NCBI GenBank assembly: GCA_034509925.1
Contig: CM067527.1
Location: 5,616,001 to 5,680,000, forward strand
DNA: 64,000 nt
Reading direction: 5' to 3'
DNA from: Hirudinaria manillensis
Lineage: Eukaryota > Annelida > Clitellata > Hirudinida > Hirudinidae
Position 1 is the stretch's first letter. Each line of letters starts with the position of its first letter. This document shows, one piece after another, positions 2,028 through 41,166 of the stretch. The notes under the pieces are model-generated. The model ran no database searches. It was not told the DNA's origin and saw nothing but the letters and a program-made list of their open reading frames with translations. The position numbers were made by a program, and so were the translations under genes.

Positions 2028-5000
2028 ATGAATGACTTGACTCTGGAACTGCAAATACTTGCCTATACAGACATCAAAAAGGCTCAACCCTTTGCAAGAA
2101 TGGCCTTTACAAACAGGGTTAGTGAAGATTTATGACTAAGAAGTACTCCAGTGTTTAGATTTTGAATTTCTATGCATGTAAATAATTTATAATTTAAAGA
2201 GCATCTTCCTCCTGGATCAAAGGAGCCTTTGTACTCTGTACATGGACAGTGGAAAGACAAAGAACCCTCCGTGGGAGATACAGAAATTACTTGACGAGTG
2301 CCTCCTCGTAACAGTTTCCGATAATGGTTTGTTTATTCTTTATATGATTGATCGACAGTTAACACAATAACGTAATTAATATTATGTAAATACTTTTTAA
2401 AAAATTATTTCACTTTAAACATTTTTTGCTTTGTAATAATTAGCATCATCACTGAATTTCAGGCTGCTTTATAGGAGGCATTACAACAGAAGGAAATATA
2501 TTTTTGTGGGATAAAGAAAATGATATTCACAGGATTGTCAGTGGCATGCTCATGCTCGCCTCATACCATGATAGAAGATTTTTGTCAGGTCAATTCCTTT
2601 TAAGTTTTAAAAAATTAATTATGAGATCCCAATTTAAAATATTTAGGAGTCCAGGTATAGAATTTAAATAGAATAAAATGTAATAATAGTAGGCAGTTTA
2701 TATATTATCTGTAGACTAAAACTTTGAAAATTATCTTGTGATAAAAAAGTGAATTTACTGAATAATTTACTGAAGACGCCAAATGTTGAATAAGATAAAG
2801 TTTTAAATAATATAATATTAATACATATTAACTTTTTATTAGTTAACTCAGCAGTCTTTAAACTGATTATCTCGATTTGCCATTAAAGATGCTGGCTTAT
2901 CCCTGCCATATCTTTGCATTGGTGACACTGGCCTCCATCTCCTTGTTGTCAACTCCAATTTCCAACTTTTCTTATGGGAAGCATCTGACATTAACAGGAA
3001 CTATGGGGCTTATGGACCAGATAAAAAACTGCTAAGGAAAGCAGACAATAAGGGGATATTGTCAGGAGGTTGGTCCTTGATATCACAGCCTCCTGAAATA
3101 AAAATTCCTTCGTTCGGAGATCACGAGGCTTGCATTCACTCTGTTTTTGTCCAGAACAGCAGTGTAAGTCTTGTATAGTTGTCAGTAATAATAATATTAA
3201 CAACAGTATCATTAATAATAATAATATTAACAATAATAACGTTAACTTCTCATTCATTCAGACATGTGGTTACCATTGCCTGTGTTCAATCGTTTTTTAT
3301 GACATCGGTTCAAACCTAGTCGTCTCCACTCTTAAGATCCTATTTGATGACAGAAGATCCTCATTCATGGGGTAGATGTGACCTCAGTTATTTTGGCACT
3401 AAATATGTACATCATGTTGTGCCTTTTCATAATTTTAGAAAAAAAATTGCATTTAGTTTTAGCATTTAAACTAATTTTAATCAACTTATTTGAAAAATGG
3501 TGTAAATATGACAATGTAACTAAATTTTCACCAGTGCTTCTAGATTTGAAGCTGTATGGAAGATGCAGGCCCATTTTCTGGCTTCAATCCTTCCATCTGG
3601 CCAGTCACGTGAGACTATCCAACCTATCAAAGAAATAGGTGCCCTGCTGATAAAGCATTCAAAGGATGGACAAATCATTGCAGTCTCCTTGAATAGAGAA
3701 TCTCCAAAAAGTCACGTGGTATTTTTATCCTCCAATCACTCGTTATTTCTTGGACGAGCCGACATACAAAGCAATGCTACAATTGGTTCAAGTAACAGGT
3801 ACAGTTTGGTGAAAATTGACTTGCAGACTCCAGTTGTATTTTTCTTTTAAATTTGCATTTAATTTCATGTTCCTTTCAAGGCACCATTGGGTAGTTAGCA
3901 TGGAGTGGACATTCAATGATCTCTTCTTGGTCTGCTTAACTGGTTTGGGATGTGCCCACCTCATCGCTCGACTAGGGGGTCCCGTGATGTGCCTTACCAA
4001 GGGCTTTGATTTCAGCCCCCGTCCTATGAGGTGCCTTCCTCTTCATCCCCTCATTTCCTTCAGGTGTGAGCTGTTAAAGATTGTGTTAGCTTGTAGAATG
4101 GATGTGAAAGTTGTCTTAGATTATGATATAATTTTAAAATGGGTTTATAAATGTTCTATATCAGCGATGGCAGTATGGTCACATCGTCAGCCAATTCCAT
4201 GCCTCAGCAGTTTTCTCTGGCCGTTCATCCAAATAGTTCCACTTTCCTCTGCTCAGATGGATACTCCGTATCTGCTATTCAGATAATGACAACACACACC
4301 TGCTTGTCACTAATGCAGGAGATTTCCAATTCAACTTCCGCGTTCTTTAGAATCGTGGAGAAAAAATTTTCCACGAGGATGGACAGGAAAGAAGGATTGT
4401 TTGGTGAATCCAAGGTATTGATAGTGTATCATAATTACTTTATTGAATATCCACTAGTCCTATTTTGGAAACATAAAAAATAATTCACAAAGCATTGCAA
4501 TACATATTTTAAAACCAATTAACATGTTTAGATTATCGATGCTACCAAGGACAAGTGTTTATTGGATTGCAAATATGTTTCATGTTTTAGTTTACTCAAT
4601 TTTAGTGACCCAAAATGAATCCACAGTATATGGATATAATGAATATCAGCTCATCTAAACTTTAAAATAAAGTTTTGTTCTTTAAGTCCAGGAAACTCCT
4701 CAGTGGAGGCATACCTTGTGAACCTCCTTTCAGTTCAGAGGTCACAGAGGTGTTCAAATTTGAAACCACTCCAATAGGGCTTCAGAGCGATGTCCAAACA
4801 TCACCTGTCGGTGCTAGAAACAAAAGGTCAAATTTTCCAGATTCTGGTAAAGTCGAGTTTGCAGGCATAAATGCAGAGGCAAATGAAGACAGGACCAAGG
4901 AGGTGAGGTGATGATGATGACGATGATGATGTCTTGAAGGACAGAAAAGTTGATTTCAACTTTTGCTGACACGATTTGATGTTTAACTTAATTTTCCAAC

Positions 5001-8000
5001 TCCAGCTAAAGACTCTGAATGATTACTTGAATCTGCTCGAAGAGAGATGCATCCATGGATGGACGTTGGCATCATCACATGCTGGCTTGTGGACCTTGGA
5101 ACATGAAATGGTGATGCAGGGAATAATCGAGAATCTAGTTGGGTGAGTTTAAAGCAAGACTTTTAATAATTTAGGTTTGTTGTTGTTAATTAGCTATTAT
5201 TATTATCAATTCAGTTTTTAATTTAATTTCTTAAGTAAGATGTCATGCAGAATTAAATTTTGTACTGTTAATAGCTTTACAAATATTTACATCAAATGCC
5301 AGGATAAAGATGATAATCATATTAATAATAATAACAATATCTATCCTATTATACTTATTAATTATAACATTATTCACTAATAATAGTGACTGCTAATAAT
5401 AATAATAATAATAATAATATTATCGAAATAATATTATATGAATTCAAACATTAATTATTATAAAGGATAATGCACTTAATGATCACCCACGGAGCAGCCC
5501 TAACACCACCTGCAGATCAGACCCCATCTTCGAGTCCCATCGAAGGCAGGGCTAGAATTCAATCCCTCTTCTCACAGGACAGGAAATTCAATCCTGGTCT
5601 TGCTCGAGCCATCGCTCTGTTGGAGAGACTTTTTAAAATTCTGAAGCTGAACTGTAACAATGTAAACAAATCAAAAGGCAGCAGAAGGAATGCCTCCGCA
5701 GGGTCCCTCGTCAGCTGCTCGTTGCTACTCATTCACTGGCTCGTTCAGGCCATTCTCACGAGTCCTTCCAAGAGATCGAAAGTCCACTCTCTGAACGGCT
5801 GCTACAAATTGATCGACGCGACGGAAATGAATCTGACGGAGACGTTTCTCGGTTCGTCCGACCTCTTCGTCGTCAAGGAAATCAAAGCCGAGCCGTGCTC
5901 GGTCTTCTCTTTCGACAAACCCGATCCGATGTTTGCAATCGGGGAGGTGGAAGAGGAGGAGGAGGAGGAGGAGGAAACTAATTCCATTTCAGAATTTCAT
6001 GTGGATGGCAATGAAAGAAAGACTGAACGAATCCCAGAGGACAAAGTTTTAGACAGGAATTTTACCAAATCTGGCTTGGGACACTCGCTTGCCTTGTCAA
6101 ATAAAGCATCCTTAGGAGCTGTGGCATCTCTTGCACGTAAGAAAAGGGGCCTCGATAACGTGGATGCCATAATTTTCCGGAGGTTGTCGTCCGTACTCCC
6201 TTCGACCGGTGCTCCTCCTGTTAACGTCGCGTCCAGGAACGTCCTCGCATGCATCGGTTCTAGGTTTCTATCTATGACGTGTTACGTATAAAAAAAATAT
6301 AATCACGATAATGATTTACGTCGCTTATTTTGCTTCAGGCTGTGTGCCAGCTACAGGCTCGTGTACCGACACGCTTGCAGACACCTAGAGAGGGTCTCCA
6401 GCGAGTGTCAGGACAGAGACCCGGCAGCCATTCGGAAGCAGATGGTAGGAACGAAGAGGATAATGTCCCTGCTCGTGTGCAAGATGGAGGAAATGAGGTC
6501 GCACGTGGTTCCTTATTGTGTCGATCGCTTTAGGACAAAAGCTGGTGAGTAAAGATGATGAAAGTTTTTATGACGTCGACTTAAGAATGGTAATTATGTA
6601 AAGTGATTAAGTCAGTATGAGTGGTGGATTTTTTTTTTCTTTGATGTTGGATATTTTCTTAAACTTTTCTAATAATATTAATAATTGGTTTGTTCATTCA
6701 TTATTTTCTGCAGAAAGAAGATTATTCGATTGCGAGCAGACCACAGCCATCTATACATGGTTGAATGAATTACTGGAATTCAAAGGTGACTTTGCAATAC
6801 TAACATGGAATAGTAATTGTAGTATTTAATAAGATTTTATTGTTTAATAATATCCGTTTTTTGTTATTAATATTTGGAGCTGAAAATCTTTTCTTATAGA
6901 TGGAGCTAATCCAGGTAGAGTCTGTAGAGTTCTCCATTCAATTCTTTATACTCATCTTTCCAGGTAAATGCACACCTTTACAAGTTTCTGTTCTTAAAAA
7001 GTAATCGTCATGCATTCTGCTGGATATTTAATATGGAAACTAAAAACTGGACTTATTTAGAATTTGTTATTTACAAAGTTATTACAATGAAATTTAATTT
7101 CTATAACATGTATTTTTTGTTTTCTATTTAAGAGGTTTTTCTCTGAAATTAAAATTAAATACTTAATATGATGCCCCACAGATATGATGCATTTGGAGCA
7201 ATCCAATTGGTTGACAAGATGGTACGAATTGCTGAAATCAAGCAGTTATGCTGCAGTCCTGATGCAAATCAGGATAGGGAGGATGCAAATATTGGCAGGA
7301 AAAAAACTAGGAATGCAGTGAAACGAAAAAATCTGGAAAATCTCAAAACAGATGTCCTTAACTTTTTTTGGTCCACAGGATCGAGGGTAAGTTATTGTAA
7401 TATGTAATCCTTAATTGTAATTAGGTATGTAAACATGTCACCCTCTTGCATCGTAAGGCACCTCTCCTTTCTGCCGGTTTACCCGACAAGGATGGAGGTC
7501 CTGTCCGGTCGGTCGCTCGGCCCATGAAATTGTTTCTGAATCTCCCCTCGAAAAGACTGTTCCAGACCATGGGAAGGTTCATGGCACGATACTTTGTGTG
7601 GGGTTGCGAGCCCTTCATCCATCCGCCCCATCAGCCGTACTCTCTTCCACCTCTTTATGAGAACCCGGAAGCAGGTAAAGATCATAATAGGTCAACATCG
7701 TAATAGTTTTTCTGATGTTAATTAATATTAATTTCTGATGCAAATTTACCAACGTCAATAACAACAATGGACCGCCATTTTATGTGATGCTGCATTTCTG
7801 TAATTGCAATAATTTTCATTCATTAATTGCTTAAGATTATGAAAATACAGTTTTAATACAGTATTATATTAAGTAGCTATTCCTTATTATTTATATATTT
7901 ATTTATTTACTTATTATATCATTTATTCCAGTTGACGAAGAACGTCGTCTGCTGCCCATACAGCGTCTTCTGTTGACCAAAGCCATAAACTTGCAGCAAT

Positions 8001-34489: not shown

Positions 34490-35870
34490 ACTTGTGACAT
34501 TCGTATTCGAAAGTTTCAATTTGTTGTAATTTATTTGCAAATCTGTTGGTTTAAAGTCTTTGCTTCTGCATGCATTTAAGAACACGACTTGTAAACGTTA
34601 ATAGTTTAGTGGAATAAACTCGTCATAATGTCCACTGTGGGGAATAATGATGCCTCTTAAAAGTTGACACGAACAAGGAAATCGATCGGCATTATTTTTA
34701 TGCAATTTATTTATTTATTTTATGTTAATTATTTATATACATTTAAGCTGATTAATTATTTGTTTCAAAATACCAAGTTGTGTCCCGTATTTGTACAAAT
34801 AAAAGCCATTTAAACTACCCGAAAGGGTTGTCCAAAAAACTGCTTCGATTTACAAGAAATAAACCTGGAAAACAACTTTTCCTGTCTTGTTAAAGTTTCA
34901 ATTAAATCATCAGACTTGTATTCGCTGGAGGTGCATTTTAAGCCAGCATCGCTCTTGATTTGTAACTTTTAGATTAAAAGTTATACCAGATTAAAAATAA
35001 AAATAATTTTTTAATATTATTATGAAATAATATTATGACGCCAAAGGTGAACGGAAATTTTCTTTGCATCTTTTTCGATCAATTCTCAAGAATTTTCATC
35101 ATGGCCAGTGCCTACGATAACAATAACCACTGTTGTGATGGTGATGGTGATGATGATGGGGATGGCGATGACGATGATGATGATGGTGATAATGATGACG
35201 TCAAGGAAGAGCGAGGATTGTTTTTGGTTAATTGAATAGGTCAATGGGTCAAATGCAAATAAGTAAAAGGCACTCACATCTAGATTTTGAAAAGCTTATG
35301 GTCATCATCGCCATCACCGCCATTTTGGCGAGCGTGTACGTCAGTCGGGCAGTGTCCAAGCCTAGCAACCGACCTAGCAACAGCAACGAGGCAGCTCGGC
35401 CCGCTCACCACCACCACCGTCGTTGTCTTCATCGCCATTATTTCATCGTCATCATCATCATGCATCTAATTATGTCAGCTGGCTTGCGCGTCGCCTCAGT
35501 ACCACCCAGTTCTGACCAGGTCCTCATTTCGCCTCAGAATCCGTTGATGGTGAGTTCTGTGGATTTTCAATTCAATCGTTTAAAAATTCATTTCAACCAT
35601 TAAACAAAACTAATTCAGTTTATCGACGTATAAGCAATCTGCTTAATCTCTGAATTTAACTTTGGAACTTTCAGGGTTCAAAGGTTAATTTTTAAAAAAG
35701 TATTTAATTTAAAAACGACAAAATAATCGCATCTCGGGCTATGTCAACACGCAAAATATCAATTGTACTTCTGTGAGACTCGGTTTGCAATTTAATTTAA
35801 AATTGTAATTATGTAGTTTATTATCAAGTTGATATAAAAGTAACTATCTGTAGATTACGTCCAAACAAGA
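34490..35870. other. Intergenic region with (GAT)n/(ATC)n runs
   Basis: Lies between the scramblase stop and the first coding exon of the ligand-binding-domain gene. Imperfect gat repeats at 35136-35200 and cat/atc repeats at about 35430-35460 generate Asp- or His-rich shadow frames. An open frame at 35232-35550 ends at a donor-like gtgagt and could be a 5' UTR exon of the next gene, but nothing supports translation. Confidence 0.45.
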
Positions 35871-37873
35871 ATGACATTTTCATTTGGGAACTCACCAAAC
35901 TTCGGTGCCATTTTGTTTGGCATCCTCCTTTCCTGTCTGCTTACTTCGGGTTAAGTATCTTTGCTGTAGTTTATCCAAAACTTGGCATAACTTATGAATG
36001 TATTATTAGCGAGATTCTCTATACCTAACAAAATGACATTAGGAAATTGATAGGTATATACTTATGTGTTGTTATTATTTCAGGCAAGGAAACTCTCGTG
36101 AGGGTAAAAAGGGAAGACAAATTGATTGTGACCACCATCTTGGTATTAACAAAAACAGCCTTCCACACCTTTAAAAATTAAACTTTCCTAAAAAAATTAC
36201 ATTATCCTAATATATGCAAATTATTTAATTGTTTATTATTCTGATCCATACGCACATCCTAAATTCGTATTATAGCTGCAAACTACCACTTAAAAAGAGA
36301 ATAAGATTTGTTAAAACTGTTATTGTCAAGCCGATGGCAATGATGCCAGTGATAATGATGATGATAATGATGTTTATTTAATAAATTACTTGTTAACTTT
36401 TCGTGAAGAACACGCCCTACTATACGAAGTCGGGGGACTCGTACGAAGGTTACATCGTGGATTTGATGCAAAAGATCAAAGAGAAGACGAACCTCACTTT
36501 TCAGTTCAGCCCAGTGGCAGATGGAAAGTTTGGGAGCCAAAGTGCAGACGGAACCTGGGATGGAATGGTGGGAGAAGTGGTCGATGGGGTGGGTTTTGTT
36601 GGTGTTTTGACCAATAATTTAATAATATTTGTTGTCAGTGAAAATCAGTAAATAAGGCAAATAGGTTGAGAAATAAATAGAAATAAATAAAATTTATTTG
36701 TTAGAACAAATACATCGGTATTGTATATCCTGTAACACCACCGAACATTAAAGTTTGTAGTAAAAACTAATCCAAACAGAAAGCCTCCATTGCAGCAGCT
36801 CCTCTGACAGTCACTGATCAGCGCAAGTCTGTACTCGACTTTACAGTTCCCTTCATGACTGTCAACTTGTCTTTGATTCTCTTGAAACCACACGGGGGAG
36901 AAGTTAAAATCCACAACGTTAAAGAATTAACTGAGCAGGTTGGAATCGTTGTCATTGTTTTGTTGTCTTTGGTGTTGATCACAAGTTAGTTAGTTAGTTA
37001 CTGTAGTAATACTGGTGCACAACATTTACAGTGACGCCAAAAACATGCATGTATATCCTATTAGATGAAATATTATTCTGTATAATAAAAATGAGACATT
37101 ATAATTTTTTTATCTATTTTCAAACAGACAAATATCAAGTGCGGAATAGTAGAAAGCGGATCTACTTTTATGTTCTTCAACAGCACACAGGACCCTCTCT
37201 TCCAAAAGCTCAACCAAATGATACTCTCTGATCCAAATAACCTTGTATTTAGTTACGATGAAGGTAGTACAATTACAAAAAATGTATTCTATTGTGTCAT
37301 GCATGACCATAATGTTGTATTCGAACTTGCTCAGTACAGCATGTGATATAGTAATTAATATGGACCATATGGTGGATCAGTCTTATGACTAAAATCAAAC
37401 TAATACTTAGTAACTTCAGTAATTTTAGTAATTATTAGTAGTGGTTGTAATATTGATTCGCAATCACCGTGATCAGTATAATCAGTGTTTAACAAGTTAA
37501 ACACAAACATGACCCTTTCAATAAAGGCATCAAGAAAGTCCGCAGTAGTAGAGGCCGTTTTGGTATGATCACGGAATCTTCAACTGCCGAATATCACAGC
37601 GGTCAAATGCCGTGCGATCTGGTCGCTGTGAACTTGATTAACTACAATCGTTCTTATGCTCTGGCTGTCAAGAAGGGCTCCCAAGTCAAGGCCACGTTGG
37701 ACAGTGCTCTGGAGCAACTCAAGAGCGGCGGGCATGCCAGCGAACTGGAACGATTGAAGCAAAAATGGTGGAAATCCGAATGCAGCTCTGGATCGTCGAT
37801 CGGGGTGGAATTCCATTCGCTGCCGTTGATGGTTCTCGTGGTGTCCCTCGCCAGTCTGGTTGGAAGTGTTTGA
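35871..37873 (+). CDS. Secreted or GPI-anchored glutamate-receptor ligand-binding-domain protein without ion channel
   Basis: Six exons (35871-35949, 36084-36142, 36409-36588, 36780-36938, 37128-37263, 37527-37873) join to 960 nt, 319 residues. Residues 1-27 form a signal peptide (FGAILFGILLSCLLTS), then a dibasic RVKR. From VTTIL at 42-46 the protein is an ionotropic glutamate receptor S1 lobe: DSYEGYIVDLMQKI, DGKFGSQ, WDGMVGE, APLTVTDQRKSVLDF. S1 passes within one exon straight into S2 (LLKPHGGEVKIHNVKELTEQ), so M1, pore loop and M3 are absent; the following intron (189 nt) is too short to hide them. S2 has ESGST, TESSTAEY and MPCDLV. The ligand residues of AMPA receptors are retained (P114, T116, R121, S171/T172, E221), as is the S2 cysteine pair (C234, C290). 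After C290 a small-residue SSGSS and a terminal hydrophobic run ending at the stop resemble a GPI signal. No amino-terminal domain exists. Confidence 0.88.
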
Positions 37874-39153
37874 AACTTGGATTAATGAAAGAGACAAAAG
37901 AATAAAGGAGGCGATTCGGGAGACTTCTTAAATGTTCCATTGACGTTTGTCGCTGTCAACCCGACTGAGGTCGCAATCATTTCTATTAACCTACTTATAG
38001 TATGCTTTTAACACCAGTGTTATCACTATGGTTGGAGGTCCAACGATAAAAAGTTTGTTTAAACAGCAAATAAATAATTTTTCAAATTATCGCCCAATCT
38101 TCCTTGTTTCCTGATCATCTCATGTCGTGTCGTGATGTCATTGGTCGATCGCTTGCCATTCGTCATTGGCTCTTTTACAGCTATTTTTGGCAAACTCTAA
38201 AGTTGAGCGTAGGTACAGTATGTAGACTAAACGTGATGCTTGACAATTTGATATTTTGACTTTTAAAGATCGCTTGTACTGATGAACGAAATCACAAATT
38301 ATTTTCCAAATGGTATTTCTGATTATATTAACATTATTTGTCACGATGTACATATATAGAACCTGGGTGTCCATACCAACACCATCCGCGTTCTTGGCAC
38401 ACAAAAAATTATCACAATATCAATGTGATCCAATGGACAACTGATGTTATGTAAACGCTGCACCCATTTCTCAGCTTTAAAAATTCGGTTTTATTCTTAA
38501 CTGTTCGAATTCAAATACTTTGAAATTTTCATTAGGATACCGGGTTTAATACCCTATTAGTTGCTTGTATTTTTCGGACAATGATTCTTGCCTGAACAGT
38601 ATTACAAATATTTGTCACAAATGTAAAACATTTCGCTCTTTTGTTCGATATAATTAACGTTGTCGGACTGTAATTCGTTGACATGTTGAGTGATAAAGGT
38701 CAATCTCGCCAATAATTAACTGACGGAGGCCTCCTAGCTTCACCTTATAAAACGGCCCAAGTAGCACAAGGGCAGCCATCCAAAGAGATTCCTAGGAAAG
38801 CTAAATGGTACTGCAAAAACATATGCCAGACACGGCAAAATAAAGGTTATTCGGAGTACTAACAACAGCCAAAACCATACAGCAATGAGATTGGGAGGAA
38901 TCATTTTCTAAATTGCATCTAAGATGTCTAGAAATACATTTTACCAAATTAGGAACCCATAATCAACTCTGGAAAGCCAGCTTCAGTTCCAGCTTATCCC
39001 CTAACTCCAAAATATAGATCTCTTCAGTTCCTCATAGTAGAGTCAATTCCAACACTCAACCCTCAACCCAGATCCATCAAAACACTAGAAAGATATGCAA
39101 CATTGGCATGAAATCTATTTTTAGACAAGTTGCAGTCTCAATTGTTCTTCCAT
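37874..39153. other. Intergenic, convergent 3' ends
   Basis: Between the ligand-binding-domain gene (plus) and RPL38 (minus). No supported gene. Part of it must be the 3' UTRs. A small minus-strand frame at 38404-38138 has no recognisable features. Confidence 0.45.
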
Positions 39154-39527
39154 TCACTTGAGGTCCTTGACTTGGAGGCCTGGGGGCAGGGATTGCCTCA
39201 GCTTCTCAGCCTTCTCAGGATCATTGATCACCAATGTGTAGAGATAGCGACTGCACCTCACTTTGAACTTGTAGTTGTCCTTGTTCTTCTTTATTTTGAC
39301 AGCTGTTAACCAAAATAAACATAGAATATAAGCAATTTTGAAATGTAAACAATTTTAGTGATCTTACATTTGGCATCCTGCCTGCGAGCAGTGAGGAGGA
39401 AATCCTTGATCTCTTGGATTTGCTTAGGCTGGAAACCAATATGAAAAATTATAAGCAATATAAATTATGTGATGTATGCATTTGGCTATTGAAAATATTT
39501 CTGAATGTCTTCATGTTTCCTCACCAT
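39154..39527 (-). CDS. RPL38: 60S ribosomal protein L38
   Basis: Three coding exons on the minus strand: 39527-39525 (the ATG alone), 39428-39368 and 39302-39154. They join to 213 nt, 70 residues, the same length as human eL38. The product reads [42 protein letters not shown] then [20 protein letters not shown] and GLQVKDLK. eL38 is a small basic protein of the large ribosomal subunit. The start Met sits at the very end of a 21-nt exon (39545-39525). A further upstream non-coding exon begins with a pyrimidine tract (5'TOP), and the long first intron holds three C/D snoRNAs. Confidence 0.97.
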
Positions 39528-40287: not shown

Positions 40288-41166
40288 ATGTTTACGAGAA
40301 TTTCGAGAAGTCCGTCAATTTGTGGATTTGTGAATTCAATTCGTAGTTCACTTTTCTCTTGGTTTGACGTACAACCGAACAAAATCATTTCAAAAATGAA
40401 AGTAATACATATCCCTGCACTCTCTGACAACTACATGTACTTAATTGTTGATGAAAAATTGAAATTCTGTGCGGCTGTCGATCCCGTGGAACCGAAAAAG
40501 TTGCTGCAAAAAGTGCAGGAGGAGAATTTGCATTTAATAGCAGTTTTAACAACTCACCATCATTGGGACCATGCAGGAGGTAACAAGGAACTGGCATCTT
40601 TAATTCCTGGAATCACTATATATGGGGGTGATGAGAGAATCGATAATTTAACCAAGAAAGTTTCTGACGATAATATTTTCATCGGTAGTCTTCATGTGCG
40701 CTGCCTTTTCACTCCATGTCATACATCTGGACATATTTGTTATTTCGTAACTGGTGAGAATGCTGCAGATAATCCTGTCGTTTTCACTGGTGATACCATG
40801 TTTGTTGGAGGATGCGGTAGATTTTTTGAAGGGAATGCAGAGCAAATGTACCATGCCCTTGTCAAAGTTCTTGGTAGTCTTCCTCCTAAAACATTGGTTT
40901 ATTGTGGACATGAATACACCTGCCAAAACCTGATGTTTGCCTCAATCGTGGAGCCTTCAAATAAATTTGTGAAGCAAAAACTTAGCTGGGCCCAGCAAAG
41001 AATCAATTCGGGTCAGCCTACAGTGCCATCAACAATTGAAGATGAATTTAAAACCAACCCATTCTTAAGAGTTAATGAGGATTCTGTTAAATGTTTTGCA
41101 GGGGTAACTGACCCCATTTTGGCCATGAAAATAATCAGGCAGAAAAAAGACTCTTTCAGAGTATGA
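40288..41166 (+). CDS. HAGH: Glyoxalase II, hydroxyacylglutathione hydrolase
   Basis: One uninterrupted frame of 292 residues. A 36-residue basic leader (MFTRISRSPSICGFVNSIRS...) looks mitochondrial. The Met at 40396 starts the conserved core MKVIHIPALSDNYMYLIVDE, the usual cytosolic start. The metallo-beta-lactamase metal site is complete: TTHHHWDHAGG (H-x-H-x-D-H), the CHTSGHICY histidine, FTGDTMFVGGCGRFFEG (bridging Asp) and YCGHEYT. The glutathione-binding C-terminal helices follow (NPFLRVNE). The enzyme hydrolyses S-D-lactoylglutathione to D-lactate and glutathione, finishing methylglyoxal removal after glyoxalase I. Vertebrate HAGH also uses two starts for two compartments. Lack of introns is unusual beside its neighbours and could mean an old retrocopy that stayed functional. 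Confidence 0.95.
   Translation: MFTRISRSPSICGFVNSIRSSLFSWFDVQPNKIISKMKVIHIPALSDNYMYLIVDEKLKFCAAVDPVEPKKLLQKVQEENLHLIAVLTTHHHWDHAGGNKELASLIPGITIYGGDERIDNLTKKVSDDNIFIGSLHVRCLFTPCHTSGHICYFVTGENAADNPVVFTGDTMFVGGCGRFFEGNAEQMYHALVKVLGSLPPKTLVYCGHEYTCQNLMFASIVEPSNKFVKQKLSWAQQRINSGQPTVPSTIEDEFKTNPFLRVNEDSVKCFAGVTDPILAMKIIRQKKDSFRV

Follow-up and report, generated by a model that had tools for sequence, protein, structure and literature searches.

A gene for a predicted channel-less glutamate receptor ligand-binding domain in the leech Hirudinaria manillensis and its pore-less relatives

Known ligand-binding proteins and the leech gene

Channel-free binding domains of ionotropic glutamate receptors (iGluRs) have long been used in structural biology as engineered S1S2 constructs. 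Here we describe a gene of the leech Hirudinaria manillensis, at 35871..37873 (+) of a stretch of 64,000 nucleotides (contig CM067527.1, positions 5,616,001 to 5,680,000, forward strand; the whole stretch is called the window), which, judged from its sequence, encodes a natural protein of this layout, a channel-less S1S2 protein with an intact predicted glutamate pocket. Like the GluA2 S1S2 core of the AMPA and kainate iGluRs, the window protein has a two-lobed ligand-binding domain (LBD) with the main glutamate contacts, the S2 cysteine pair and the S1 intron positions, and the likeness extends to an end-to-end alignment and to the fold match of a relative. Unlike these receptors, it has no amino-terminal domain, M1, pore loop, M3 or cytoplasmic tail, and its S1 joins S2 by a natural short linker that resembles the laboratory constructs. 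Four short iGluRs (P0004, P0007, P0026, P0028; 461-517 amino acids, possibly partial records) are similar in that no PF01094, the amino-terminal domain, was listed for them; they differ in keeping M1, pore and M3 (PF00060 listed). We group them with the kainate-binding proteins, a family of the same short type.

The acetylcholine-binding protein (AChBP), of which an annelid form exists, has a fold unrelated to that of the iGluR LBD and is a functional analogue of the window protein only; the window domain is an iGluR LBD. As described in the accessible text on the gastropod protein, AChBP is likewise the LBD of a neurotransmitter-gated channel without the channel, but forms a soluble ring-like pentamer of Cys-loop receptor domains (PMC3423370), whereas the window protein is a predicted iGluR clamshell that is probably tethered by glycosylphosphatidylinositol (GPI). 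SmGBP of Schistosoma mansoni, according to the portion of the source available, is a truncated, membrane-associated metabotropic glutamate receptor at the schistosome surface (PMC3206071). It shares with the window protein a glutamate-binding Venus flytrap without the membrane-signalling part at an animal surface, but belongs to the metabotropic receptor family and not to the iGluRs; its authors found a lipid anchor such as GPI to be not highly probable, without ruling one out (PMC3206071). In the accessible text of open-licence papers, no description of a channel-less, soluble or GPI-anchored iGluR was found. In the portions available, one leech study describes iGluRs with PF00060 and transmembrane segments (PMC11748453), another counts iGluR contigs and makes no mention of pore-less ones (PMC6054404), and a metazoan survey left out sequences without the M3 motif (PMC6307864).

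The window gene and its predicted ligand site

An earlier note, made from the letters of the window, had proposed a six-exon channel-less gene, and this observation is confirmed: the model, read from the DNA translation, is right to the base, its introns (134, 266, 191, 189 and 263 nt) are all GT-AG, and its phases close to give 319 codons and a stop, the TGA at 37871-37873. A custom spliced profile aligner run on window DNA 35401-38200 recovered identical introns, which is a check and not independent evidence, because its profile held the window protein and three relatives. The parts of the gene are as follows.

35871..35949, plus strand: exon 1, amino acids 1-26, start codon and signal-peptide-like stretch, donor CGG/GTTAAG (from the translation)
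36084..36142, plus strand: exon 2, amino acids 27-46, mature N-terminus and start of S1, ending ...LIVTTIL
36409..36588, plus strand: exon 3, amino acids 47-106, first part of S1 (from the PF10613 match)
36780..36938, plus strand: exon 4, amino acids 107-159, end of S1 (P114, T116, R121), short linker KPHGGEVKIHN and start of S2
36939..37127, plus strand: intron 4, 189 nt, without room for M1-pore-M3
37128..37263, plus strand: exon 5, part of S2 with G170, S171 and T172
37527..37873, plus strand: exon 6, remaining S2 (E221, C234, Y248, C290), SSGSS region, hydrophobic tail and stop
37784..37870, plus strand: putative GPI-signal region, amino acids 291-319, small-residue stretch, spacer and hydrophobic tail (from the translation and a hydrophobicity comparison)

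The window protein has a hydrophobic N-terminus, and both LBD lobes claimed for it were recovered: Pfam matched PF10613 with 104 bits, and in the PDB the GluA2 S1S2 construct 1ftk matched best, with a single unbroken alignment of residues 39-291 (E 2.4e-47, far beyond chance), so that the alignment of S1 and S2 with solved iGluR LBDs is complete from end to end. Neither PF00060, which covers M1, pore loop and M3, nor PF01094 was found by Pfam in the protein. When pore-bearing relatives were compared with the window, they matched the S1 and S2 exons only, with no significant match for the pore region, and the matches to the M1-pore-M3 columns fall elsewhere in the window with E 0.9 or worse. 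Missing pore exons hidden in the window were therefore rejected for lack of significant homology, and an upstream amino-terminal domain was rejected because no PF01094 match lies within the window (0 of the 39 genome matches listed). The S1-S2 join (...LILLKP-HGGEV-KIHNVKEL...) lies inside exon 4, next to the 189-nt intron, as had been proposed. If the start of that intron (36939-36989) were retained, exon 4 would read on in frame as VGIVVIVLLSLVLITS and then stop; this frame, an S1-only product with a hydrophobic end, is probably due to chance in T-rich intron sequence.

The ligand site was read in GluA2 numbering, with the ligand-backbone contacts and glutamate-specificity residues taken from the accessible part of PMC12226733, where glutamate-selective iGluRs carry G/S/T653, T655 and Y732 together with P478, T480, R485, S654 and E705. 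The window protein agrees with this rule at all eight positions and with correct spacing (P478=P114, T480=T116, R485=R121, G653=G170, S654=S171, T655=T172, E705=E221, Y732=Y248), and it is therefore a predicted glutamate binder. The earlier statement that the contacts known from AMPA receptors are all retained stands for P114, T116, R121, S171, T172 and E221 with their spacing, but not for the further backbone contact Y450, which is F87, nor for L650, L704 and M708, whose equivalents are V, T and T. The S2 disulphide cysteines (GluA2 C718, C773) remain as C234 and C290, and both columns hold Cys in all 15 pore-less proteins of the sequence alignment.

Pore-less paralogs, relatives and their origin

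The leech genome was scanned over 23 contigs (148,429,096 bases), where profile matches to the iGluR binding domain or pore could be grouped into at least 23 loci. PF00060 pore matches occur at 13 loci; the match at C4:11.40 Mb falls below the cut-off, although an M1-like and an M3-like stretch can still be read there with the spliced aligner. S1 and S2 without a pore were found at no fewer than seven loci: the window gene and the loci at C6:10.22, C11:5.90, C7:0.46, C4:6.46, C2:11.49 and C1:2.89 Mb. Three loci stand outside the pore and pore-less counts, C2:2714 (2,500 N in the stretch), C1:13691 (4,491 N) and C1:14496 (uncertain model). The S1-S2 join falls within one exon and has a hydrophilic linker in every pore-less gene but that at C2:11.49 Mb, six of the seven; in the C2:11.49 Mb gene it lies at a 264-nt intron. 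For the C7 paralog the aligner proposes a 126-nt intron at the join, yet the frame is open through it, so that there is no room for a pore either way. The C1 paralog could be read complete, with 349 amino acids on the same plan as the window gene: a signal-peptide-like exon that matches window exon 1 and ends in phase 1, a short exon ending ...VSTIL (phase 0), S1, S2 and a hydrophobic end. For the other five paralogs, inspection by eye of the 700 bases upstream, the sole stretch covered, revealed no start exon.

Some of the leech loci have features of their own. The pore at C4:11.40 Mb is degenerate, with an altered M3 motif and most ligand-site residues changed, and this gene is perhaps an IR-like or non-conducting receptor. 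In the C4 pore-less paralog, a Ser/Pro-rich in-frame open stretch of 642 nt (4678-5319 of its locus L065, minus strand) lies inside S2, and it would be either an intron, as aligned, or a 214-amino-acid insertion in the second lobe. Two AMPA-like gene pairs (C11:8.88/C11:8.93 Mb and C11:2.30/C12:3.02 Mb) encode identical pore/M3 protein over the compared parts and are either recent duplicates or assembly duplicates.

The search of other proteomes for pore-less LBD receptors, which the earlier note had proposed, also returned relatives. Three protein searches gave 4, 24 and 11 matches, the second having scored the 7,996 candidates that shared most words; few eukaryotic proteins were returned, and the pore-less relatives listed are a minimum with no bearing on other phyla. 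Three of the four matches of the first search are pore-less (P0001, P0002 and P0003, the last from the annelid Owenia fusiformis), as are P0005 and P0006 (which, over the part present, share 83% and 87% identity with the C11 paralog) and P0025 (Owenia), P0027, P0029 and P0030; the sequences of P0005, P0006, P0029 and P0030 do not begin until the second part of S1. Contigs of 1333 and 1633 bases carry P0001 and P0002 in full, lengths so short that they suggest spliced transcripts. As far as their sequences tell, the pore-less genes form a family with diverging pockets that reaches Owenia. Since Owenia is far from leeches within the annelids, the pore-less design is likely old within annelids, or else of repeated origin. 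In both Owenia proteins, His/Asp-rich flanks surround the binding domain, which suggests metal binding.

The same family bears on whether the window holds a decaying or mispredicted locus, that is, a pseudogene or an assembly artefact of a receptor shown without its pore exons. Although some donors look weak and the gene model was read from DNA, the 319 codons are free of stops over six exons, the ligand site and the cysteines are kept, six paralogs of like design occur elsewhere in the genome, one of them complete from start to tail, and intact relatives exist elsewhere, including the two on short contigs. Because such a family exists, we regard decay or misprediction as very unlikely.

Within the family, all eight contacts are present in the window protein alone among the 15 pore-less proteins tabulated. 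P0001 is without S654 only and P0027 without Y732 only (F there), the S654 and T655 positions are changed in the leech C1 paralog, and at least three contact positions are changed in the C6, C11, C7, C4 and C2:11.49 paralogs, with the R485 equivalent lost in C6, C11 and C7. Glutamate binding, predicted for the window gene, can therefore not be assumed across the family, including the leech paralogs.

The introns connect the pore-less genes with iGluR genes. A phase-0 intron just before the 'ADIA' block (before exon 4) is found in all seven leech pore-less models. Of the 11 pore-bearing leech models that span the region, 10 have it in the same alignment column; the exception is C7:3.39 Mb, where a phase-0 intron lies 12 positions away. 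Likewise, the phase-0 intron after residue 46 of the window protein falls in the alignment column of P0004 position 50, at which a phase-0 intron also occurs in several pore-bearing leech models. These shared introns imply that S1 was inherited from an iGluR gene. The leech pore-less models showed none of the recurrent S2-side introns of the pore-bearing genes, which lie at P0004 positions 309 and 391 (window residues 177 and 259), and the C6, C11 and C7 paralogs have one open frame from the second part of S1 to the stop. We infer that the pore and the S2 introns may have been lost together, perhaps when the gene recombined with a processed copy, and that introns were gained again later.

Trees were built from 39 rows (34 animal and 5 bacterial) and from 29 rows; the second left out the five bacterial rows and pore_P0008_termite, less_C1, pore_C4b, pore_C7b and pore_C11d, which are long or partial. 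Neither tree takes in P0006 (a near relative of P0005), the leech pieces C5 and C12, the three leech loci that stand outside the counts above, P0031, P0032 or the bulk of the bacterial matches of the second protein search. In the 39-row tree the bacterial rows split from the animal rows with support 100/100, the deep forks are open, the best form takes four changes of the pore-less label of which the starred branches force only one, and less_C1 joins the termite sequence, both being long branches. The 29-row tree places all pore-less rows on one side with support 23/0.

The bacterial split also bears on a gain of a bacterial amino-acid-binding protein by lateral transfer, with no derivation from an iGluR. 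PF00497 (SBP_bac_3) does match across the domain (residues 49-286, 54 bits), but PF10613 scores higher (104 bits), the five bacterial proteins stand apart, the S1 introns are common to animal iGluR genes, and the window protein carries the S2 cysteine pair known from animal iGluRs. A bacterial origin was rejected on Pfam score, tree and introns, and we give it almost no credence.

The C-terminal tail and the proposed function

The window protein ends in the 15-mer LMVLVVSLASLVGSV (mean Kyte-Doolittle 2.47), which is preceded by CSSGSSIGVEFHSLP and followed by zero residues; the hydrophobic run of 17 residues reaches the stop, and in a shuffle control 20 of 20,000 reached 2.4 near the end. The earlier suggestion of a GPI anchor gains by comparison, since the most hydrophobic 15-mer of the last 40 residues sits 0-7 residues from the stop in 14 of the 16 pore-less proteins (C11, P0005 and P0006 being close kin and not independent in this count); the mean is at least 2.0 in 12 of the 16 tails, which have little sequence in common. 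None of the four pore-bearing relatives tested ends in such a tail (the leech pore-bearing models, which stop short of their C-termini, are outside this comparison): in P0004 the last span is followed by 22 residues, and the C-termini of the other three are polar. The order of signal-peptide-like start, omega-like region, spacer and hydrophobic end forms a putative GPI pattern that recurs in the family and fits GPI signals without being proof of them.

A secreted soluble glutamate-binding protein, with its tail lost or inefficient, might instead buffer or carry glutamate as a diffusible protein, in the manner of molluscan AChBP. Owenia P0003, which has the same architecture and a His-rich end without a hydrophobic stretch, indicates that soluble forms may exist in the family; the terminal stretch is nevertheless retained by 14 of 16 members despite their differing sequences and runs to the very stop in the window protein, and we consider a soluble form unlikely, if worth keeping in view. 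The tail might also be an M4 remnant of a single-pass membrane partner that pairs with full-length iGluRs by lobe-1 contacts and tunes them. Its position fits, as S2 of iGluRs precedes the last transmembrane segment and the cytosolic tail in the available text of PMC2924276, and the structures nearest to the predicted fold of a relative include LBDs of full receptors. However, the window protein ends with its tail, and in 13 other pore-less proteins 0-7 residues come after it, as opposed to the 22 residues of P0004 and the polar ends of the other pore-bearing relatives, and the tail sequences are little conserved. We rank this explanation, itself improbable, after the soluble one.

We consider it probable that the window gene encodes a secreted, GPI-tethered channel-less iGluR LBD that captures glutamate outside cells and was derived from an iGluR by pore loss, a reading by which the interpretation of the earlier note is supported. 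A putative signal peptide would direct the protein into the secretory pathway, where the two lobes, by homology and by the predicted fold of the relative, should fold as a clamshell with the S2 disulphide, and the C-terminal tail of SSGSS, spacer and hydrophobic end would, from the family pattern, be swapped for a GPI anchor. The tethered domain, given its retained contacts, would then bind L-glutamate and close without ion conduction, and its most likely job, by analogy with AChBP, would be local glutamate binding outside cells as a buffer, sink or ligand-presenting partner. The family may have arisen from an iGluR gene by loss of the entire pore stretch, as the kept S1 introns suggest, and the paralogs may later have changed their pockets, so that other members probably bind other ligands or none.

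Several points weigh against this reading. The window gene is a model read from DNA, and some of its donor sites look weak by eye; the predicted fold belongs to a relative with 38% identity and not to the window protein itself. Its tail could be a plain membrane span. Hydrophobicity is lower in the tails of C4, P0002 and P0030 (1.86, 1.71 and 1.49), P0006 has 12 residues after its stretch, and P0003 lacks one, so that not every family member would be tethered by such a tail. Most paralogs are without parts of the glutamate site, and the trees neither establish nor refute a single origin for the pore-less genes.

Elsewhere in the window, a glyoxalase II (HAGH) gene at 40288-41166 consists of one uninterrupted frame of 292 amino acids and is possibly a retrocopy or an intron-poor gene. 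A minus-strand stretch at about 39150-39430, recognised by eye, resembles ribosomal protein L38 with introns.

A wider proposal, which we put forward tentatively and with less than even confidence, is that annelids have an old and diversified family of GPI-tethered channel-less iGluR LBDs that capture glutamate and other small ligands outside cells, much as AChBP does for acetylcholine, in which the window gene would be the glutamate binder and the six leech paralogs with altered pockets may constitute a chemosensory or transport repertoire. A natural, multi-gene version of the S1S2 layout would mean that animals use the binding domain by itself, and the family offers a direct route to testing extrasynaptic glutamate buffering or sensing in leeches, a classic model of neurobiology.
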